Origin: Caulobacter sp. CCH9-E1
Lineage (GTDB): Bacteria; Pseudomonadota; Alphaproteobacteria; Caulobacterales; Caulobacteraceae
Assembly: GCF_001556515.1 (NCBI RefSeq)
Contig: NZ_LSJA01000285.1
Location: forward strand, 1 to 51,260
Direction: 5' to 3'
DNA: 51,260 nucleotides
Shown here: positions 14,706-50,160 of the stretch, piece by piece
How the letters are laid out: each line of letters opens with the position of its first letter
How positions within the stretch are numbered: the stretch's first letter is position 1
Notes under the pieces: model-generated
Databases searched by the model: none
Seen by the model: only the letters and a program-made list of their open reading frames with translations
Told to the model about the DNA's origin: nothing
Translations under genes and position numbers: made by a program

Positions 14706-16400
14706 TCAGGCCGCTGATCCCACGGCGAGCGGCGTCGGGAAGATCAGCCGAACCGTAAGACCGCGAGGCTCCTGCGTCTCGAAGGAGACCTTGCCGCGCA
14801 GCTGACGGGCGAAGGCGGTCATCAGGGTCCGACCCACGCCGCCGCCAAGGCTGTCCGCCGCCCCCGGACCGTCGTCGCTGATCGACAGCTCGGCCTCTTC
14901 GCCCCGCACATAGAAGCTGACCCGAAGCGTCCCTCCCGTCGCGCCGAAGGCGTGCTTCTGCGCGTTGGTGATCGCCTCGACGGCGAACAAGGCGATCGGC
15001 GCCAGACGGTCGGGGTCGATCACCAGGGGATCGGCGTGGACCTCGGTCCGCACCAGGCTGGACGTCCCCATGTCGTTCGCCAGAAGCTGGGCGGTCAGCT
15101 CTTCCAGGAAGGGGCGCAGGTCGACCCGCTTCAGGTCAGGCCCCTGATAGAGGGCGCGATAGATCTGGGCCAAGGCCGTGATCCGTTGGCGCGTGTCGTT
15201 CATCGCCGCCTTCGCCGCCGGATCGGCCAGGGCGCGTTGCTGCATGTTGAGCAGCGAGGTGATGATCTGCAGGTTGTTCTTCACGCGGTGATGGATCTCG
15301 CGCATCAGCGCGTCCTTGTCCGCCAGGCTGTCCATCAGCGAGGCGTCGCGGGCGACGATGGCGCCGGCCATGGCGTCGAGGGTGGCGGCCAGCTCCCGGA
15401 TTTCCGGCGGCGCACGCTCGGCCTGCAAGGGCCTGACCGTAAAGCGTCCACGCGCGTAGATGGCCGCGACGCGTTGCAGATAGACAATCCAGCGGATCAC
15501 GCCCCGCTCGGCGGTGAACCACACCGCCGCCAGGCCCAGGACGAACGCCAGCAACGGCAGAAGCAAACGGGAGATGGGATTGATCCAGGCCCAGGACAGC
15601 AGTCGGGGCGCTGGCGCCGAGAGGATGACGAAGACATTGTCATCGACCAGAGGCGCGGCCGAGAACGTCCGATCGCGGCGCTGAGCGTCACGTGCGTTCC
15701 AGAGCGCCGCGCCACGCTGCTTGGCGACGGCGCGCCAGCCGCTGGGCGGGGCGCTGAAGGCGGCGGGACTGGTGGCGGCGAACACCCGCCCGCGAGAGTC
15801 CGCCAGAGCCACCTCGGCGCCGCCGGGCAGAAAGCGGTTGGCCGTCTCCACCTTCAGATCGTCCAGCGTCAACACCGCGGCCATCGCGCCCTCGAAACGC
15901 TCCGGCGAGCCCGAGCGGACAGCGGCGAGGACAGCCGGTTCATTGGCGTAAGTCGCGCCAGGATCCGCGGCGACCACCAGGCTGGCGCCCCTCCGAAGGG
16001 ATTGGAACCAGGCGCGCGCGCCGCGTTGCGGGTCGTAAGGCGTCGTGGCGGCGGCGCAGGCCACGCGGCCGCGCGCGTCGAAGCGGATCAAGTTCGCGTA
16101 GCCGGGCAGTCTCGCGCGCATGTCGGCCAGACGCTGGGCGCACTCCAGCCCGACCGTGCCCGGCCCCAGCGTCTGCAGCAGCACGCCCGCGGACATGATC
16201 CGCGCGCGCGCGACGGCCGCGCTGCGGCCCGCCGCCAGCTCCAGACTCTGGCGACGCGAGTCCGCCTCCGCGCGAAACGCGAAGACGGACTGCAGACCGC
16301 CTAAAATCAGCACGGGCAGCAGCGCGACGCACAGAGCTATGGCGAGACGGACGCGGATGGATGTGACGGCCTGCGTGGCGCGGCCGGCGAGCGCTTTCAC
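14706..16400 (-). CDS. phyK: PhyK, general stress response sensor kinase
   Basis: PhyK phosphorylates the anti-anti-sigma factor PhyR. The 564-residue protein has a membrane helix at about 17-42, a periplasmic sensor domain (about 43-270), a second helix at about 275-298 and a HAMP-like linker. A HisKA_2 domain follows with the acceptor His in EIHHRVKNNLQ (370/371), then a HATPase domain with NAQKHAF and DDGPGA. The TM-sensor-TM layout fits an envelope or osmotic signal. Its start overlaps the sigT stop by four bases (ATGA), so it belongs to the nepR-sigT-phyK operon read from the sigma-T promoter at 17255-17279. Identification rests on family features plus position. Confidence 0.93.
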   Translation of the reverse strand: MKALAGRATQAVTSIRVRLAIALCVALLPVLILGGLQSVFAFRAEADSRRQSLELAAGRSAAVARARIMSAGVLLQTLGPGTVGLECAQRLADMRARLPGYANLIRFDARGRVACAAATTPYDPQRGARAWFQSLRRGASLVVAADPGATYANEPAVLAAVRSGSPERFEGAMAAVLTLDDLKVETANRFLPGGAEVALADSRGRVFAATSPAAFSAPPSGWRAVAKQRGAALWNARDAQRRDRTFSAAPLVDDNVFVILSAPAPRLLSWAWINPISRLLLPLLAFVLGLAAVWFTAERGVIRWIVYLQRVAAIYARGRFTVRPLQAERAPPEIRELAATLDAMAGAIVARDASLMDSLADKDALMREIHHRVKNNLQIITSLLNMQQRALADPAAKAAMNDTRQRITALAQIYRALYQGPDLKRVDLRPFLEELTAQLLANDMGTSSLVRTEVHADPLVIDPDRLAPIALFAVEAITNAQKHAFGATGGTLRVSFYVRGEEAELSISDDGPGAADSLGGGVGRTLMTAFARQLRGKVSFETQEPRGLTVRLIFPTPLAVGSAA

Positions 16401-17008
16401 CGCAGAGAGCTCAGCCGCTCCGCGTCGGCCAGGATGGCGTGCATCGCATCACCAGCGGCCGCGCCATCGCGGTCGTAGGCGCCCGCTTCAAGGATCGCCT
16501 GCAAGGCGCGGCGGGCCCGACTGACCCGGCTCTTCACCGTGCCGACCGCGCAGCCGCAGATCTCAGCGGCTTCCTCGTAGGCGAAGCCGCCCGCGCCGAC
16601 CAGGATCAAGGCTTCACGCTGCTCGGCGGGCAGCATGGCCAGGCCCAGGCGAAGCTCGTCGAGCGCCACGGGCGCTTCGGGGTCATCCACCGCTACGAGG
16701 GTCCGCTCCGCGGCTTCCTGGTCGAGCTGGCTCTGGCGCCAGCTGCGGCGCTTTTCGGAATAGAACTGGTTGCGCAGGATCATGAAGGTCCACGCCTTCA
16801 TGTTCGTGCCCAGCTGGAAGCTGGCGCGCGCGTCCCAGGCCTTCATCATGGCGTCCTGCGCCAGATCGTCGGCGGCGGTCGGATCCCCCGTCAGAGTCCG
16901 CGCGAAGGCGCGCAGATGCGGGATAAGGGTCACCAGCTCACGCTTGAACAGAGCGTCGCGCGCGGGATCGGGCGGCGAACGCCCCACCTTTTCTTCGGCC
17001 ATGGTCAT
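16397..17008 (-). CDS. sigT: SigT, EcfG-type sigma factor of the general stress response
   Basis: A 203-residue ECF sigma factor. Region 2 spans about 25-90 (LRAFARTLTGDPTAADDLAQDAMMKAWDARASFQLGTN), and region 4 about 125-180 (LGLAMLPAEQREALILVG, YEEAAEICGCAVGTVKSRVSRARRAL). The EcfG class is held inactive by NepR. It overlaps nepR upstream and phyK downstream by four bases each, so the three are translationally coupled. Transcription from a sigma-T promoter before nepR gives positive autoregulation. The matching promoters in this window are its predicted targets. Confidence 0.95.
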   Translation of the reverse strand: MTMAEEKVGRSPPDPARDALFKRELVTLIPHLRAFARTLTGDPTAADDLAQDAMMKAWDARASFQLGTNMKAWTFMILRNQFYSEKRRSWRQSQLDQEAAERTLVAVDDPEAPVALDELRLGLAMLPAEQREALILVGAGGFAYEEAAEICGCAVGTVKSRVSRARRALQAILEAGAYDRDGAAAGDAMHAILADAERLSSLR

Positions 17009-17254: not shown

Positions 17255-17279
17255 AACGTGCTTTTCCGTACCGGGTTCC
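17255..17279 (-). promoter_or_regulatory. Sigma-T promoter of nepR-sigT-phyK
   Basis: Minus strand GGAAC, 16 bases, CGTT, exact consensus. Start near 17248, 37 bases before the nepR ATG. It provides autoactivation of the operon. Confidence 0.9.
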
Positions 17280-17318
17280 ATAAGCTTGGGCATAAGATGT
17301 CAAAATTCCTCGACCGAC

Positions 17319-17343
17319 GGAACCGGTCAGTTGAGGAGGCGTT
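17319..17343 (+). promoter_or_regulatory. Sigma-T promoter of phyR
   Basis: Plus strand GGAAC, 16 bases, CGTT, exact consensus. It diverges from the nepR promoter with 39 bases between the two elements, so both arms of the partner switch are under SigT. Start near 17350, leader about 67 bases. Confidence 0.9.
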
Positions 17344-17416
17344 ATCGGCCTTCGACGGAACGGCGCAGCTTTGCCGTGCGTTCTACGGTTTTCGAGACAC
17401 CGCATCGGGAGGGGTC

Positions 17417-18895: not shown

Positions 18896-18920
18896 GGAAC
18901 TCATTCCGGCACGCGCCGTT
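18896..18920 (+). promoter_or_regulatory. Sigma-T promoter of the GsrN-like sRNA
   Basis: Plus strand GGAAC, 16 bases, CGTT, exact consensus. No protein-coding frame follows it on the plus strand; the next gene is on the minus strand, so a non-coding product is expected. Confidence 0.88.
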
Positions 18921-18926
18921 TTCATC

Positions 18927-19045
18927 TTCGCGAAGGCGGCGACGCCCCCCCGACTTGAGGCTGGCGCAAGCCAGCCTGCCGCCTTCGCACCCCCCTTTGT
19001 TGATGCGAACTCAGGCGGACCGGCTATCCGGCCCGCCCTTCTTCG
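18927..19045 (+). ncRNA. gsrN: GsrN-like general stress small RNA
   Basis: The RNA starts about seven bases after a sigma-T promoter and ends at an intrinsic terminator, about 115-120 nt. It contains a perfect 11-bp outer stem (18930-18940 with 18978-18988) and an inner 7-bp hairpin with a GCAA tetraloop (18959-18965 with 18970-18976). Two C-tracts would be unpaired, seven C at 18945-18951 and six C at 18990-18995. GsrN of Caulobacter is a SigT-dependent sRNA that uses a C-rich loop to pair with katG mRNA and promotes oxidative-stress survival. Promoter, size, C-tracts and location in the GSR region all fit. The name comes from these features, not an alignment; the ends are estimates. Confidence 0.82.
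19014..19045 (+). terminator. Intrinsic terminator of the GsrN-like sRNA
   Basis: GGCGG-A-CCGG, loop CTAT, CCGG-C-CCGCC (19014-19037) followed by CTTCTTCGTCCTGTTC. Nine pairs with one opposed A/C. It may also slow transcription arriving from the minus-strand OmpA-like gene. Confidence 0.7.
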
Positions 19046-19976: not shown

Positions 19977-20001
19977 AACGGCCACCGTCCGGGAGGGTTC
20001 C
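19977..20001 (-). promoter_or_regulatory. Sigma-T promoter of the glycine-zipper gene
   Basis: Minus strand GGAAC, 16 bases, CGTT, exact. Start near 19970. Only 9 bases separate this element from the plus-strand sigma-T element at 20011. Confidence 0.85.
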
Positions 20002-20010
20002 GTGCGAAGC

Positions 20011-20036
20011 GGAACCATGGCCGCTTCCGGGCCGTT
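20011..20036 (+). promoter_or_regulatory. Sigma-T promoter of the lipid kinase/phosphoesterase pair
   Basis: Plus strand GGAAC, 17 bases, CGTT. Start near 20043, leader about 27 bases before the GTG at 20070. Back to back with the glycine-zipper promoter. Confidence 0.8.
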
Positions 20037-23686: not shown

Positions 23687-23712
23687 AACGTCGCATTCGT
23701 CGCTGCGGTTCC
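23687..23712 (-). promoter_or_regulatory. Sigma-T promoter of the DUF883/holin-like operon
   Basis: Minus strand GGAAC, 17 bases, CGTT. Start near 23680, leader about 50 bases. Confidence 0.82.
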
Positions 23713-23815: not shown

Positions 23816-25654
23816 ATGGACGACGCCCCAATCGTCAGCGACGACCGCCAGGAAACCGCCCGCCTCAAGGCTTTGCGCGCGCTTGGAATTCTGGACGGCG
23901 AGGTGAATGAACCGCGCCTCCTGCGGATCGCGCGCCTGGCCTCCCGGCTGTTCGACGCCCCGAAGGCGGCCGTCGCGCTGGTTGACCAGGACCGCGTCTG
24001 GCGCAAGGCGTTCGTCGGCTATGCGGGCCCGGAAGCTCCCAGGTCCAACGACCTCGCCGGCAAGGTGGTCTCGGCCGGAAGAGCCGTCGACCTGGCCGCG
24101 CCGATCCGCGACGGCCAAGGCCACATTCTGGGCGCGCTGGTCGTCGAGGGGCCCAGCGCGCACGGCCTGCCCTCCGCTGAGGACCTACAGGCGTTGGAGG
24201 ATCTGGCGGACCTAGCGGCCGAAGTGCTGACGGCGAAACCCGAGGGCGACAGAACGCTGGAGGGCGAACGTCTAAACCTCGCCATCACCGCGGCGGCGCT
24301 TGGCGAGTTCGAGTGGGACATCAAGCGCGACGTCTTCAAGATCAGCCCTCGCCTGGCGAAGGTCGCGGGGATCGCCCCGGGCGTGATCCCGTCCGAGAAC
24401 GGCGCGGCGCTGTTTCCCTACATCCATCCAGAAGATCGCGAGATCGCCCGCGAGACGATCAACAAGCAGCTCGCCGAGACCGGCCGTTACAGCCTGGAAT
24501 ATCGCCGCCTTCCCGACGCGGACGGTCGGGCGGTCTGGTACCATGGGTCCGGCGTCATGCTGTTCGGGCCGGACCACGAACCGACCTATCTGATCGGCGT
24601 CGTCCAGGACATCAGCGAGCGCAAGGCCGAGGAACAGCAGCGCGAGGCGCTCGTCGCCGAGCTGGATCACCGGATCAAGAACCTGCTGGCGGTCGTGCAG
24701 TCGGTCGCCGCCCAGTCGGCGCGCAAGTCGGCCTCGCTCGACGTCTTCCTCAAGACCTTCGCCGCGCGCCTGAAGTCGATGAGCTCGGCGCATGACTTGC
24801 TGAGCGCCGCCCGTTGGCGTGGAGCGACGCTGGCGCGGATCGCCGCCGCCGAGCTCGGCGGTCTCGCGCCGACCCAGACCCGCTGGGACGGCCCGGAGCT
24901 GTTCCTGACGCCGCGCGCCGCCGCGGCGCTGTCGCTGGCGATGCATGAACTAGCGGTCAACGCCGTGCGCTACGGCTCACTGTCGACCGAGAATGGCAAG
25001 GTGGAGGTCGTCTGGCGGCGCACGCCGGAAGGCGGTTTCGCCCTCGAGTGGCTGGAGACGGGCGGACCGCCCGCGACGGCGCCGGTGACCAAGGGCTTCG
25101 GCGCCACGCTGATCGAGGACGTCGCCGGCCGCGAACTGGGCGGTTCGGCCAAGATCAATTATCGCTCCAGCGGCGTCACCGCCATGATCGTCGGCGCGGC
25201 CGAGGCCCTGGCCGACGCGCCTCCGGTCGAACCCGTCAGCGCCCTGCCCGAACGGATCGTCGAGACCGTCGTCGCCGCTGACGAGACCGTGCGCCCGGGC
25301 GCGATCGCCGGACTCAAGGTTCTGATCGTCGAGGATTCGCTGCTGCTGGCCCTGGAGCTCGAAGCGGGCCTGGAGGACGCCGGCGTCGAGGTCGTGGGCT
25401 GCGCCGCCGAGCTGGGCGAGGCCCTGTCGATGGTCGAGAAGGACTTCGATGTCGCGGTCTTGGACGCCGACCTGAACGGCCAGTCGGTCGCCCCCGTGGC
25501 CGAAATCCTACGCAGCATGGGTCGCCCCTTCGTGTTCGCCACCGGCTATGCCGACAAGGCTGCGCCTATGGGATTCGACGCCCCGATCGTGCGCAAGCCG
25601 TACAACGTCCACCAGATCGCCCGCGCCGTGGCGGGGGTCACGGGTCGGGCATAG
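23816..25654 (+). CDS. GAF-PAS-HWE hybrid histidine kinase with C-terminal receiver
   Basis: A soluble 612-residue kinase. Residues about 10-140 form a GAF-like domain (RLLRIARLASRLFDAPKAAVALVDQDRVW). A PAS domain spans about 155-270 (GEFEWDIKRDVFKISPRLAKVAGI, LIGVVQDISERKAEE). The HWE/HisKA_2 phosphoacceptor is H285 in AELDHRIKNLL, with a HATPase after it (MHELAVNAVRYGSLS). A receiver (about 500-610) has D550 in VAVLDADLNG and the PFVFATGY signature of the FATGUY receiver class. HWE kinases with FATGUY receivers often feed or modulate the GSR. It lies 104 bases from the DUF883 sigma-T element but I see no sigma-T box in its own direction. Signal unknown. Confidence 0.85.
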   Translation: MDDAPIVSDDRQETARLKALRALGILDGEVNEPRLLRIARLASRLFDAPKAAVALVDQDRVWRKAFVGYAGPEAPRSNDLAGKVVSAGRAVDLAAPIRDGQGHILGALVVEGPSAHGLPSAEDLQALEDLADLAAEVLTAKPEGDRTLEGERLNLAITAAALGEFEWDIKRDVFKISPRLAKVAGIAPGVIPSENGAALFPYIHPEDREIARETINKQLAETGRYSLEYRRLPDADGRAVWYHGSGVMLFGPDHEPTYLIGVVQDISERKAEEQQREALVAELDHRIKNLLAVVQSVAAQSARKSASLDVFLKTFAARLKSMSSAHDLLSAARWRGATLARIAAAELGGLAPTQTRWDGPELFLTPRAAAALSLAMHELAVNAVRYGSLSTENGKVEVVWRRTPEGGFALEWLETGGPPATAPVTKGFGATLIEDVAGRELGGSAKINYRSSGVTAMIVGAAEALADAPPVEPVSALPERIVETVVAADETVRPGAIAGLKVLIVEDSLLLALELEAGLEDAGVEVVGCAAELGEALSMVEKDFDVAVLDADLNGQSVAPVAEILRSMGRPFVFATGYADKAAPMGFDAPIVRKPYNVHQIARAVAGVTGRA

Positions 25655-41245: not shown

Positions 41246-42196
41246 ATGGCCAACGGCCATGCCGAAAGGGTTCTTTCGGTGCTGCGCGACGGCGCCGCGC
41301 CGGCCCTGTCGCCGATCGCCGCCTCGTGGCGACGCTGCCTGACCCAGCATCACCTGGATCCGGAGAACCGAAAGCCGCCCGAGACCCTCACGGGCGCTGA
41401 GCTGCGTCTGGCGCAGGAACGCATGGGTCCGCTGCTCGCCGCGGCCCAGGACAATCTCGACGCCCTCTTCCAGGCGGTGGGCGACGCCGGCTGCTGTGTT
41501 CTGCTGACCGACGCCGATGGCGTCCCGGTCGATCGCCGGGGCGCGGAGGGCGACGACACGGTCTTTCGCCGCTGGGGCCTCTGGCAGGGCGCGGTCTGGA
41601 GCGAGGCGCGCGAGGGGACCAACGGAATTGGCACCTGCCTGACCGAACAGCGCGTGCTGACGGTCCATCGGGACCAACACTTCCACACCCGCAATATCGG
41701 CCTCTCCTGCACCGTCGCCCCCTTGTTCGATCCGGCTGGCCGCGTCGCGGGGGCGCTCGATGTCTCCTCTTGTCGTCCGGGACTCGAAGCCTTGACCGGC
41801 ATGGTCGAGCGCATCGTCACCGACGCGGCCCGAAGGATCGAGGCCAAGGCCTTCCGGGAAGCCTTCCCGAACGCCCGGATCGTCTTGCTGCCGGAAACGG
41901 GCGCGGAGCGGGCCTCCGTTCCGATGCTGGCGGTCGATGGCGACGACCTCGTGATCGGGGCCACCCGCGCGGCGCGACAGGCGCTGCGATTGACCGACGA
42001 GATGTTGCGGCGCGGGCTCGCTTCGCCCGACCGTTCGGCCGGCTTGGATGACGCCGAGCGCGCCGCCGTCCGCCGCGCCCTGACCCAGGCCGGCGGCAAT
42101 GTCTCGGCGGCCGCCAACCTCCTGGGCCTGTCGCGCGCGACGCTGAACCGCAAACTCAGGCGGCTTGGCCTGGAACGCGGTCGCGAATTCCACTGA
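41246..42196 (+). CDS. AcoR-like regulator lacking the AAA+ domain
   Basis: A 316-residue protein with the N-terminal region of AcoR-type activators (SPIAASWRRCLTQHHLDPE) and a GAF domain (about 55-190, VLLTDADGVPVDRR, WSEAREGTNGIGTCLTEQRVLTVHRDQHF). It ends in a Fis-type helix-turn-helix (about 270-312, VRRALTQAGGNVSAAANLLGLSRATLNRKLRRLGL). The sigma-54-interacting AAA+ domain (GAFTGA) is entirely absent, so it cannot remodel sigma-54 polymerase. It must act as a repressor or sigma-70-type activator. GGAGGAAACG precedes the ATG. It lies just before the aldehyde dehydrogenase gene and a perfect palindrome it may bind. Confidence 0.85.
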   Translation: MANGHAERVLSVLRDGAAPALSPIAASWRRCLTQHHLDPENRKPPETLTGAELRLAQERMGPLLAAAQDNLDALFQAVGDAGCCVLLTDADGVPVDRRGAEGDDTVFRRWGLWQGAVWSEAREGTNGIGTCLTEQRVLTVHRDQHFHTRNIGLSCTVAPLFDPAGRVAGALDVSSCRPGLEALTGMVERIVTDAARRIEAKAFREAFPNARIVLLPETGAERASVPMLAVDGDDLVIGATRAARQALRLTDEMLRRGLASPDRSAGLDDAERAAVRRALTQAGGNVSAAANLLGLSRATLNRKLRRLGLERGREFH

Positions 42197-45931: not shown

Positions 45932-46486
45932 ATGCGCCCGATCGTCCTCGCCCTGAGCCTCTCTGTCGCCTTGGCCTCGTCGGCCGCGCGCGCGGAGGAT
46001 GGCGAACGCGGCGACGGCGTCGGCGTCTCGATGCGGCTCGACGATCAAGGGCATGGCGTCGTCCGCGCCCACACCGAGATCGCCGCGCCGCCCGAGCTTG
46101 TCTACCGCACCCTGCTCGATTGCGACCGCGCCGCCCGGATCATGCCGGGCGTCCGCCGTTGCAAGGTGGTTTCCAAGGACGCGACGGGCGAGATCCGCGA
46201 ACATGTGGTGCTGTTCAGCTTCTTTCTGCCGGCGGTTCGCTCGACCTCGCGGGTGACGCTGGAGCCGAACCGGCTGATCCGCTTCACTTGCATCCGGGGC
46301 GATATCCGAGCCTGCGACGGAACCTGGCGGCTGACGCCGATCGATGGCGGCCGCCGGACGCAGGTGGACTATGATTTCTGGGCCAGCGCGCCGTTTGGCC
46401 TGCCCATTGATCTGGTCGGGCGCATGATGCGGCGAGATGCGCCAGCGGCGCTGCGGGCTCTACGTCGCGAGTGCGAGCAGCCATGA
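45932..46486 (+). CDS. Exported SRPBCC (cyclase/dehydrase-like) protein
   Basis: A 184-residue protein with a signal peptide (MRPIVLALSLSVALASSAARA, cut near 21) and a START-like domain: HTEIAAPPELVYRTLLDCDRAARIMPGVRRCKVV, REHVVLFSFFLPAVRSTSRVTLE, and GTWRLTPIDGGRRTQVDYDFWASAPFGLPIDLV. This matches the polyketide cyclase/dehydrase type, placed in the periplasm here. Coupled to the DCC gene by an ATGA overlap. The Shine-Dalgarno is weak. Ligand unknown. Confidence 0.8.
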   Translation: MRPIVLALSLSVALASSAARAEDGERGDGVGVSMRLDDQGHGVVRAHTEIAAPPELVYRTLLDCDRAARIMPGVRRCKVVSKDATGEIREHVVLFSFFLPAVRSTSRVTLEPNRLIRFTCIRGDIRACDGTWRLTPIDGGRRTQVDYDFWASAPFGLPIDLVGRMMRRDAPAALRALRRECEQP

Positions 46487-46911
46487 CACCGCGCCCGCCC
46501 GAAGAGCCCGATGGCCTGATGCTGTTCGATGGGGTGTGCAACCTGTGCAACGGCGCGGTTCAGGCGGTTTTGGCGGTCGACCGCGAAGGCGCCATCCGCT
46601 TCACGCCCCTGCAGTCGCCTTATGGGCAGGCGCTGGCCGCAAGGCATGGTCTGAACCCAGAATCGCCCGACAGCTTCATCTTCCTTGACCAGGGCCAGGC
46701 GCTCACCAAGACGGCGGCGCTCGCGGCGATCCTGCGTCGCGCGTCCCGTCCCTGGCGGTGGCTCGCGATCATCGATCGCCTGCCGCGCGGCCTGACGGAC
46801 CGGATCTACGACGCGATCGCCCGCAATCGCTATCGGCTGTTTGGACGGCGCGAGCATTGCGTGGTCCCGACCGAGGACCAGCGCGCCCGGTTCATCACCG
46901 AAGCGCCCTAG
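46483..46911 (+). CDS. DCC-family (DUF393) thiol-disulfide oxidoreductase-like protein
   Basis: A 142-residue protein with the DGVCNLCNGAVQ motif near the N terminus, whose CxxC resembles a thioredoxin-type redox site. IRFTPLQSPYGQAL and the C-terminal DRIYDAIARNRYRLFGRREHCVVP are typical of DUF393. The start is the ATG at 46483, which overlaps the upstream stop. It shares a CTAG with the convergent bphP stop. Partner unknown. Confidence 0.82.
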   Translation: MTPRPPEEPDGLMLFDGVCNLCNGAVQAVLAVDREGAIRFTPLQSPYGQALAARHGLNPESPDSFIFLDQGQALTKTAALAAILRRASRPWRWLAIIDRLPRGLTDRIYDAIARNRYRLFGRREHCVVPTEDQRARFITEAP

Positions 46912-49442
46912 AACAACGCCGCGACGCTCTCGGCGCTGTAGGGCTTTTGCAGAACCGGCGCTTCCTTGAAGCGATCCGGGAAGGCCGCGCTGTCGCCAAA
47001 GCCGGTGCCGAACGCGAACGGCACACCCGCCTCCTGCAGCGCCCGAGCCACCGGGAAGCTGGTTTCCGATCCGAGATTCACGTCCAGGATCGCGAAGGGC
47101 GGCAGGTCTTCCGCCAAGGCCTCCAAGGCCTGACCGACGCTGGAGACGACCGTCACCTGCTTGACCCCCAGGCGCATCAGCATGTCCTCCAGATCGAGCG
47201 CGATGATCATGTTGTCTTCCAGCACCAGCATCCGCTCCGGCGCGCGCACGGGCGTCTCCGCGCGCTTGGCCTTGGCGATCGTCGCCTCGACCCCCTCGGT
47301 CGTGACATAGCGGGCGGGAACACGGATCCGGGCCTGGAATCCCTCGGGGCGGTAATCGAGCGTCACCTCGCCATCCAGATCGTGCGGAATGGAGTATTCG
47401 ATGATGGTGGAGCCGAATCCCCGGCGCGTGGGCGGCTTGACCAGCGGACCGTCGCGTTCGCGCCACTCGATGATCAGGTCGCCGCGCGCGTCGCGTTCCC
47501 AATCGACCGCGACATAGCCACGCTGATCGCACAGGGCCCCATACTTGGCCGAGTTCGTCATCAGCTCATGGATGACCAGGGACAGGAGAGAGAAGGCGTC
47601 CGGCGCGAGGGCCGTGGGCGCGCCGGTCAGGCGCACACGGTCGGCCTTGGCGCTCAGATAGGCCTCCGCCTCGGCGGTGATCAGGTCGCTCAGCGCGCCC
47701 GGACCCCATTGGTAGCGGGTGATCTGGTCATGCGCCCGGGCCAGGGCCTGGACGCGTCCGCCCACCACTTCGGCGAATTGCTCGACCGTCGAGACCCCCG
47801 CGCGGCTCTGGCTGATCAGCCCTCGGATCAAGCCGAGGATGTTGCGGACCCGGTGGTTCAGCTCGGCGATCAGCAGCTCCTGCCGCTGGTTGGCGCGTTG
47901 GCGCTCCTCGTCGGCGAGGTCGGTCAGGCGGAAGACGATCTCCAGCAGGCTGACGCGCATGCTCTCGGCCAGGAAACGCTCGACCTGCGTCCAGGGCCGG
48001 CTGTGGCCGCGTACGGTCTCCTCCCAGGCCTCGAAACTCTTGCGCGGCGTCAGCCGCTCGCCCAGCGGCCCGACCTGAACCAGCTTGGCGGGCTGACCCG
48101 CCCAGACGACGGTCTGGGCCTCCTCCTTGCGGAAGAAGATCAGATAGTCGCGGGGCGAGCGCGACAGCGGCGCCGCCATCATGCCGGCCGCCTTGCCGGC
48201 CCACGACGCGGCCGACGGCAGCAGCGCGGCGATCTCGTTGGTCGCAAAGACCGAATGGGTGTCCTTTTCGCGCAGCAGCCGGATCAGGGCGTGGACATTG
48301 CTGGCGTCGGGTGTCGAGTCCCGGAGGGTCAGTCGACCTTCCAGCCACAGCGCCAGGCCGTCGCAATGGACCAGTCGGCACAGGTCGTCGAGATAGGGAC
48401 TGAGCGTATCCGCGCCCTGCGGCGCGCCCACGACCGTCGCCATCATCCGATCGTGCAAGGCGCGCGCCTCGGCGTGGCGGCGCGTCTCGATCTCCCGTTC
48501 CCGGCTCTCAAGCGTCAGCGAGAACAGCTGACCAAACAGTTCGGCCGCCGTGCGGCGCTCATAGCTGATGTGCTTGGGCGCATAATGGTGGCAGGCGAAA
48601 AGCCCCCACAACTTGCCGTCGCGCAGGATCGAGATCGACAGCGAGGCTCCAACGCCCATGTTGCGCAGGTACTCGATATGGATCGGCGAGACGGCCCGCA
48701 GCATGCTCATGGAGAGGTCCACGGGCTCGCCGGTGACGCTGATTTGCGGCGTGATCGGCGAGACCTCCGCATCCACGTCGGCGATGATCCGCAGCCAGTT
48801 GCGTTCGTACAGGGCGCGCGCCTGAACCGGTATATCGGAAGCGGGGTAACGCTGCCCCAGGAATGAGCCGACGCCGGGCCGCACCGACTCGGCGATCACC
48901 TCGCCCGCGCCGTCATGGTTGAAGCGGTAGACCATGACCCGGTCGAACTCCGTCAGCGCGCGGACCTGGCGAGCGGCCTCGTGGCAGAAGTCCTCAAAAC
49001 CCGGGCGCGCGGCGATCCGCATCGTCATGGACCGCACCGCCGAGGCCGCCTCGATAAGGGCTTCGGCCTGACTGGGCTCGCCCTCGATGATCAGCATGCG
49101 GCCGGAATAATGCAGCGCCAGGTCAAAGTCCTCGCCGCCGTCGACCAACGGCTGGCCAAACATCCGCTCGACCGCGTCAGCTCCCCGCATGATCTGCAGC
49201 CGACCGCGAATGGCGTGGATCGCATGACCGCTCATGACCTGGGTCAGGGGGCGACCGATGAGATCCGTCGCCGGCAGGCCCAGAAAACGCAGCGTGGTGG
49301 TCGAGGCATGGACGACCAGCCAGTCGGTGTCGACCGCGAGCAGGAAGCCGAACGGCTGAATCGCGCCGAGCATATGGATCGGCTCGCGATCGCAGTTGGT
49401 CAGATCGACCTCAAATCCGGACACGGACGCCGGCTCGTACAT
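46908..49442 (-). CDS. bphP: Bacteriophytochrome hybrid kinase (PAS-GAF-PHY-HWE-REC)
   Basis: A red/far-red photoreceptor of 844 residues. C17 in LTNCDREPIH is the biliverdin-attachment Cys of bacteriophytochromes. The PAS domain runs to about 130 and the GAF domain from about 145 to 320, with PASDIP and HIEYLRNMGVGASLSISI. The PHY domain (about 330-510) carries the tongue motif PRKSFEAW. The HWE/HisKA_2 phosphoacceptor is H530 in ELNHRVRN, and the HATPase contains HELMTNSAKYGAL. A C-terminal receiver (about 730-844) has Asp in FAILDVNLG and PFAFGTGFGD, a variant of the FATGUY signature. It overlaps bphO by 32 bases. The pair is read from a sigma-T promoter. Confidence 0.93.
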   Translation of the reverse strand: MYEPASVSGFEVDLTNCDREPIHMLGAIQPFGFLLAVDTDWLVVHASTTTLRFLGLPATDLIGRPLTQVMSGHAIHAIRGRLQIMRGADAVERMFGQPLVDGGEDFDLALHYSGRMLIIEGEPSQAEALIEAASAVRSMTMRIAARPGFEDFCHEAARQVRALTEFDRVMVYRFNHDGAGEVIAESVRPGVGSFLGQRYPASDIPVQARALYERNWLRIIADVDAEVSPITPQISVTGEPVDLSMSMLRAVSPIHIEYLRNMGVGASLSISILRDGKLWGLFACHHYAPKHISYERRTAAELFGQLFSLTLESREREIETRRHAEARALHDRMMATVVGAPQGADTLSPYLDDLCRLVHCDGLALWLEGRLTLRDSTPDASNVHALIRLLREKDTHSVFATNEIAALLPSAASWAGKAAGMMAAPLSRSPRDYLIFFRKEEAQTVVWAGQPAKLVQVGPLGERLTPRKSFEAWEETVRGHSRPWTQVERFLAESMRVSLLEIVFRLTDLADEERQRANQRQELLIAELNHRVRNILGLIRGLISQSRAGVSTVEQFAEVVGGRVQALARAHDQITRYQWGPGALSDLITAEAEAYLSAKADRVRLTGAPTALAPDAFSLLSLVIHELMTNSAKYGALCDQRGYVAVDWERDARGDLIIEWRERDGPLVKPPTRRGFGSTIIEYSIPHDLDGEVTLDYRPEGFQARIRVPARYVTTEGVEATIAKAKRAETPVRAPERMLVLEDNMIIALDLEDMLMRLGVKQVTVVSSVGQALEALAEDLPPFAILDVNLGSETSFPVARALQEAGVPFAFGTGFGDSAAFPDRFKEAPVLQKPYSAESVAALF

Positions 49443-50016
49443 TCAGGACTCCAGGCGAGGCGGCGGTCTCGAACGCGGCCGAGAAGCACTGAAACCCATA
49501 TCGCGCACCCGCAACGGCCTCGTCTGTCCGCAAGCCGACTTTCGGTTGCGCTTCCAACCACCCCAGGAAGGAGCGCCAGAGATCGGCCTCATCGCCATGG
49601 CCGAGGTAGCCGGTCGGCAAGCCGGGCGCCGACCTCCGCACGCGGCGGGCCAGAAAACGCGCGCCCAGCCTCGAGCCCTCAAGAACATAGAGGAGGCCCA
49701 CGCCGAACCCTCGCGACGGCGTGGGTTCGGCCGCAGTGACTGGAGGCGCCAGACCTAGGGCGACGAGATCGCTCGACAGCGCCGCGCGCCGGCTGCGATC
49801 GGGCCAATCACCCAGCCAAGCCCCGACGCCGGCCCGCTCCAACGCCAGCTCCAAGGGCGTCAGAGCGACGGCGGAGGCCGAGAGAAACCGCCCGTACCCA
49901 GAGGGACTCTCGATATCGAAGGTCAGCGCGACAGCGTCCAGAGCCGCGTGGTCTTTGGCGGTCGCCGCGCGGAGACGGTCACGAAGCAAGGGTTCAGTCA
50001 ATCTGGGGCCCCACAC
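49411..50016 (-). CDS. bphO: Heme oxygenase supplying biliverdin (BphO-like)
   Basis: Cleaves heme to biliverdin, the chromophore of BphP. The roughly 200-residue protein has LLRDRLRAATAKDHAALDA with the proximal His and the distal-helix motif GFGVGLLYVLEGSRLGARFLARRV. TGYLGHGDEADLWRSFLGWLE follows. The bphO-bphP order on one strand supports the role. The start is uncertain. A TTG at 50085 lies upstream of the predicted sigma-T start site (near 50048) and is excluded. The GTG at 50016 and a TTG at 50001 remain, the latter with GGGG seven bases upstream. Confidence 0.82.
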   Translation of the reverse strand: MWGPRLTEPLLRDRLRAATAKDHAALDAVALTFDIESPSGYGRFLSASAVALTPLELALERAGVGAWLGDWPDRSRRAALSSDLVALGLAPPVTAAEPTPSRGFGVGLLYVLEGSRLGARFLARRVRRSAPGLPTGYLGHGDEADLWRSFLGWLEAQPKVGLRTDEAVAGARYGFQCFSAAFETAASPGVLNVRAGVRVRI

Positions 50017-50054
50017 GCGCGACCCGCGAGCGGGGAGTCGAGACGAACGCTCTA

Positions 50055-50079
50055 AACGGTCATTCGGCGTTCCGGTTCC
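50055..50079 (-). promoter_or_regulatory. Sigma-T promoter of bphO-bphP
   Basis: Minus strand GGAAC, 16 bases, CGTT, exact consensus. Start near 50048, 32 bases before the GTG chosen for bphO. The spacer itself contains another GGAAC. Confidence 0.82.
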
Positions 50080-50160
50080 CGGCAAATGACAGGTCGGTAA
50101 GGTTTATCTCGAAATCGACGGTGCTAGGGTCCAGAACAGTTGTTCAGGAGACCCTCGCGC

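Follow-up and report, generated by a model that had tools for sequence, protein, structure and literature searches.

A SigT-type promoter element predicts stress-gated expression of a heme oxygenase and bacteriophytochrome gene pair in Caulobacter

Can a photoreceptor be placed under the command of the general stress response (GSR)? The question is raised by a 51,260-nucleotide (nt) stretch of Caulobacter sp. CCH9-E1 (assembly GCF_001556515.1, contig NZ_LSJA01000285.1, positions 1 to 51,260; herein the window), which encodes a GSR cluster with phyK, a PhyR-type protein, and an EcfG-type sigma factor that fits SigT and, some distance away, the heme oxygenase gene bphO and the bacteriophytochrome gene bphP. 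The best explanation of the locus, and one that we consider likely, is that bphO and bphP form a single operon regulated by SigT (EcfG), with light sensing gated by stress. An earlier, sequence-only reading of the window had proposed bphO-bphP as a SigT target; the prediction is very probably correct and is well supported by the conservation of the promoter element described below. The sigT product of the window is matched in 73 of 75 genomes of the genus, and the GSR cluster would supply the SigT activity acting on this element.

The element, GGAACCGGAACGCCGAATGACCGTT, is an exact GGAAC-N16-CGTT sequence within the bphO-bphP leader, where the earlier reading had placed it; it lies on the minus strand at 50079..50055 and points to bphO. 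The SigT motif is described as GGAAC and CGTT with a spacing of 15 to 17 nt (PMC5869019; this and the other papers are cited for the portions of their text available), and the element carries both boxes within that spacing, upstream of bphO and on its coding strand. Exact GGAAC-N15-18-CGTT sequences occur 13 times in the window against 1.29 expected, with 11 of the 13 located at 14.6-23.7 kb. The last site of the GSR cluster is found at 23687-23712, consistent with the distance of 26 kb noted earlier, and a single further match (N18; 41896-41922) lies between the cluster and the bphO element. In an alignment of 15 leaders, the bphO start codon is TTG (50001) in 13 and GTG in locus L014; the L002 leader differs, and the bphO start there is not alignable with the others. 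A G-rich stretch lies upstream of the TTG, which is likely to be the start. The CGTT end would then precede bphO by 53 nt and not by the 32 to 40 bases given before; a start at the in-frame GTG (50016), not the codon favored by the alignment, would reduce this to 38 nt. A separate sequence, AAACCTTAC (50097-50107, bphO strand), located between bphO and the gene for an M16 peptidase, is conserved in 13 of the 15 leaders and may be the promoter of the peptidase gene or a site for a regulator.

The window and 14 further Caulobacter genomes, from among 75 of the genus, form a first lineage in which BphP is 84 to 96% identical. GGAAC-N16/17-NNTT is present upstream of bphO in all 15 of these close orthologues, at the same place and on the same strand. 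It is exact in five leaders (the window, L001, L002, L003, and L011) and in the subclade of the window; L002 retains the exact element despite a different bphO and different upstream DNA. Over the 14 rows with a 16-nt spacer (L010, with a spacer of 17, was left out), the major-letter frequency is 1.00 for the invariant -35 box, 0.68 for the spacer, and 0.84 for the -10 box, whose final TT is invariant; the flanks reach 0.71 (12 nt before the element) and 0.74 (20 nt after). The boxes are thus steadier than the spacer between them, as in a promoter, although CGTT itself is exact in just 5 of the 15.

A second lineage of HWE-receiver BphPs (∼51% identical; eight genus members, L015-L022) carries exact GGAAC-N16-CGTT in seven (L015-L021), 93-111 nt before the BphP match, with boxes at a major-letter frequency of 1.00 against 0.66 for the spacer. 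No bphO was found ahead of bphP in these seven by motif search; weak heme-oxygenase matches occur elsewhere in all seven genomes (best E 5.6e-8 to 1.3e-13). The remaining member, L022, has bphO and lacks the element; on a BphP tree it groups with genus g64 members, not with L015-L021. A third lineage (39% identical, L105-L109) carries the exact element in three of five members, lying upstream of bphO in L105 and L108, the two members examined with Pfam, which finds HWE in both; L107 has CATT. The exact element of L106 is 286 nt before bphP with no bphO frame of 100 amino acids (aa) between them, as if bphO had been reduced to remnants.

The comparison groups, genus g294 among them, were scanned within 1000 nt upstream. 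The element is found in none of 29 BphPs without a receiver, a group defined by identity, length, and the missing receiver motif (Pfam, applied to L023 and L120, assigns HisKA_2 to both). Other HWE BphPs of the family, including L104, yielded one exact match among 18 (L090, at -151), rejected as it falls within the bphO reading frame; CATT matches at -154 to -172 in L093 and L095-L097 lie inside bphO by coordinates. The sole forward exact match among 18 loci (17 genomes) of a search across the Alphaproteobacteria, GGAAC-N17-CGTT at -670 in L062, from another order, was discounted because on visual reading it belongs to a palindrome resembling a terminator. Twenty named loci outside Caulobacter (L038-L045 and L047-L058; 1500 nt scanned) gave one exact match, at -1047 in L053, which is too distant to belong to the leader of bphP or bphO. 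Loci L031-L037 and L046, also named, duplicate contigs of genomes already sampled and were counted once. On the tree (81 proteins, with 8 of the 29 receiver-less BphPs and without the fragment L014; short search, long branches), the exact-element label needs five changes, at least four of them forced by well supported branches, against an average of 14.0 for shuffled labels. The three element-carrying lineages are separated by lineages without the element. Most simply, the element would have been recruited three times, the -10 box of the first lineage having drifted; a single ancient origin followed by many losses would be less simple. Repeated recruitment would suggest selection.

The window BphP has the PAS-GAF-PHY domains, N-terminal cysteine (Cys17), PASDIP, and PRxSF of a bacteriophytochrome. 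The earlier reading also described it as an HWE kinase with a C-terminal receiver, and this holds: the HWE_HK domain scores 71.4 bits (Pfam cut-off 22.8) and is accompanied by ELNHRVRN and WxE, while the receiver, which gives no Pfam Response_reg hit at 0.001, is recognized by NCBIfam matches below cut-off (to PhyR-family and PRK13435 models; the kinase matches a LovK-type model, likewise below cut-off) and by visual identification of its acidic, phospho-Asp, T, and K positions. Its motif, PFAFGTGFG, departs from the FATGUY pattern PFXFATG(G/Y), with G replacing A and F replacing Y; the PFLFATGYG of L015-L021 fits. The receiver is 41-42% identical to FATGUY single-domain-like paralogues of genomes G001 and G012 and 29% identical to PhyR (paralogue names by sequence reading). 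At two further loci (G012:C1:3836253-3837188 and G001:C1:1566223-1567158), the kinase-receiver part of BphP matches across one stop codon; each seems to consist of an HWE kinase gene and, downstream of it, a distinct receiver gene (motif PFAFASGYG), a pair of which BphP would resemble a fused version.

Four traits of BphP are typical of bathy phytochromes: Q at PASDIP-3, G at PRxSF-8, R at PRxSF-3, and a linker of 47 (DrBphP minus 3). L108 of the third lineage has S at PRxSF-8. The nearest solved structures in the Protein Data Bank are 6g1y and relatives, which we take to be Agp2. These traits mark most known bathy phytochromes and are not exclusive to them (PMC12362586); the window BphP is probably of the bathy type, with a Pfr dark state. 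In bathy phytochromes, autokinase activity is inhibited by darkness (PMC11021371). The upstream gene, bphO, overlaps bphP by 32 nt; its product scores 25.9 bits with Pfam Heme_oxygenase (cut-off 23; longer reading frame, 49411-50085) and has no NCBIfam hit. Heme oxygenase makes biliverdin.

That the element is a chance match, with bphO-bphP driven by another promoter, is very improbable. An isolated match is weak evidence, because exact matches (N16-17) are no commoner genome-wide than those of a mirrored control: 315 and 317, respectively, over five genomes (G001, 54 and 79; G012, 54 and 77; G013, 69 and 53; G014, 63 and 60; G004, 75 and 48). This favors chance, and motif rarity was rejected as proof. 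The significance comes instead from conservation and place, with invariant boxes around variable spacers in both the first lineage and 7 of 8 members of the second. The chance of a hit per 100-nt leader is ∼0.0008, reckoned from the mirrored rate in G012; in the full set of 103 upstream stretches there is a single occurrence of the mirrored motif, on the reverse strand, and the real motif has a single reverse-strand occurrence.

Several observations weigh against the best explanation. The -10 box is other than CGTT in 10 of the 15 first-lineage members (TGTT in L004-L010, of which L010 has N17; AGTT in L012 and L013; CATT in L014), and TGTT sites are hardly enriched over five genomes (162 versus 133 mirrored). 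The nepR-side and first phyR-side core promoters, by comparison, have CGTT in 30 of 30 genomes checked, including 9 of the 14 orthologue genomes; the bphO promoter therefore appears degraded or altered outside the subclade of the window and L011. The exact element is absent from all 10 genus g294 relatives (≤64% identical; upstream DNA of 56 nt in L081 and 776 nt in L079) and from the genus HWE BphPs L022 and L104. The second lineage, moreover, has L instead of Q at PASDIP-3 (7 of 7), sharing the other three bathy traits. Non-CGTT promoters may be weaker, decaying, or read by a second EcfG. Use of the bphO promoter by such a paralogue (SigU-like) and not by SigT, at least where the -10 box is TGTT, is unlikely. 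At least two EcfG matches (E 1e-60) are present in 9 of the 10 non-CGTT genomes (exception G035), the second copies being 59-68% identical, and a single match is seen in G001 and G012, which are two of the four CGTT genomes, as this explanation would have it; yet these two, the nearest to the window, carry the exact element with a single EcfG, while G064 and G065 keep CGTT with two and three matches. Given small numbers and shared ancestry, a link between the -10 letters and a second EcfG is suggestive only. In Caulobacter vibrioides OR37 (L014, L037), bphP is split into two frames near residue 517 and the -10 box is CATT, fitting decay or a draft error. An extra phyR-side site in L169 has AGTT.

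With SigT as the regulator, stress would free SigT from NepR, and RNA polymerase with SigT would initiate from 50055-50079; heme oxygenase, and hence biliverdin, would be made together with BphP. Assuming a Pfr dark state, the BphP kinase would reach its highest activity in the Pr form, following far-red light, and BphP would report far-red light or darkness. Phosphate would be exchanged among BphP, its own receiver, and an MrrA/LovK/PhyK relay, allowing light to tune PhyR-NepR-SigT. Stress-driven induction of bphO-bphP is the one step for which the sequence itself argues; light feedback on the stress response through an MrrA-type relay is plausible by analogy. SigT raises nepR, phyR, phyK, and lovK, and the FATGUY regulator MrrA of C. 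crescentus receives phosphate from several HWE kinases and exerts its effect via PhyK and LovK (PMC5964349). Because those kinases feed MrrA, direct feeding of PhyR, which the sequence-only reading had presumed for the HWE-receiver class, is not the likeliest route in Caulobacter; the closer identity of the receiver to the FATGUY kind agrees. We tentatively propose, at slightly less than even confidence, that HWE-receiver phytochromes were put under the general-stress sigma factor three times in Caulobacteraceae, with or without bphO, and that phosphate exchange between the fused receiver and MrrA forms a light-tuned feedback loop, a red/far-red counterpart of LovK-LovR. If true, this would point to a function for HWE-receiver phytochromes, a group with poorly characterized outputs. 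A serious competitor, though one we would sooner doubt than accept, is that SigT drives bphO-bphP while BphP signals elsewhere (motility, attachment, or cell cycle) through its own receiver, with no loop. No partner regulator lies beside bphP, Agp1 and Agp2 of Agrobacterium act on conjugation and DNA transfer (PMC10813442), and MrrA ties the stress response to development (PMC5964349), all of which favor an output elsewhere; the HWE/HisKA2 kinase class, however, is tied to the alphaproteobacterial GSR (PMC12148442), and of the three further FATGUY regulators in PMC5964349, the kind that the BphP receiver is near, two act in the GSR.

The features of the window are collected in Table 1. Beside bphO-bphP lie a convergent DCC1-like gene (46471-46911, plus strand) and the divergent M16 peptidase gene (from ∼50161, plus strand). 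Within the GSR cluster, divergent pairs of SigT-type sites are found at 17255-17382 and 19977-20036, and several relatives retain the former set, in which the phyR side carries tandem sites. The Rfam small RNA CC3552 (RF01529; 99.9 bits versus 50) is located at 18932-19038 on the plus strand, beginning 12 nt past the CGTT end of a SigT-type site at 18896-18920 (plus strand); it looks like a SigT-driven small RNA and is possibly GsrN. Near the cluster, a second HWE kinase with a C-terminal receiver (GAF-PAS-HWE-REC) is encoded at 23816-25654 (plus strand).

Table 1. Coordinates of the principal features of the window
Feature	Position	Strand	Basis
phyK	14706..16400	-	NCBIfam NF051872 HisKinPhyk, 808 bits vs 750
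sigT (EcfG-type sigma factor), name by context	16397..17008	-	Pfam Sigma70_r2 and r4_2
C-terminal FATGUY-like receiver of BphP, residues 713-844, motif PFAFGTGFG	46911..47306	-	NCBIfam, motif, paralogue comparison
HWE_HK domain of BphP, residues 527-608, phosphoacceptor motif ELNHRVRN	47619..47864	-	Pfam
bphP, bacteriophytochrome PAS_2-GAF-PHY-HWE_HK-receiver, 844 aa	46908..49442	-	Pfam, NCBIfam
bphO, heme oxygenase, 196 aa, TTG start	49411..50001	-	Pfam; start by alignment
Predicted SigT/EcfG-type promoter element GGAAC-N16-CGTT	50055..50079	-	motif match and conservation upstream of bphO orthologues

The open full-text literature, with most subscription papers outside its scope, yielded no paper recognized as linking phytochromes with the PhyR/EcfG response, in agreement with the earlier statement that no such link is reported in Caulobacter; none combined a bacteriophytochrome with EcfG, or a phytochrome with HWE, the general stress response, and PhyR together. 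The named BphP loci include C. vibrioides OR37 and no C. crescentus laboratory strain, and the usual C. crescentus model strain may lack bphP.

Among known systems, LovK-LovR of C. crescentus likewise includes a photosensory kinase that influences the stress response and is itself encoded by a gene upregulated by SigT (PMC5964349); it is described as a negative regulator, seemingly light-independent (PMC4844311). LovK-LovR comprises a blue-light flavin sensor and a separate receiver, whereas the window BphP joins a bilin sensor to a fused receiver; LovK is placed in HisKA2 (PMC5964349), whereas BphP fits HWE better. The FATGUY receivers MrrA and SdrG are single-domain proteins, whereas the window receiver, with its near-motif, is fused to a light-sensing kinase. 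Agp2-type bathy phytochromes of Agrobacterium share with the window BphP both the bathy-typical residues and the domain order, an HWE kinase followed by a C-terminal response regulator (PMC11021371); the outputs described for them are conjugation and DNA transfer (PMC10813442), and the available text portions describe no SigT/EcfG control, whereas the window BphP is predicted to be a SigT target.

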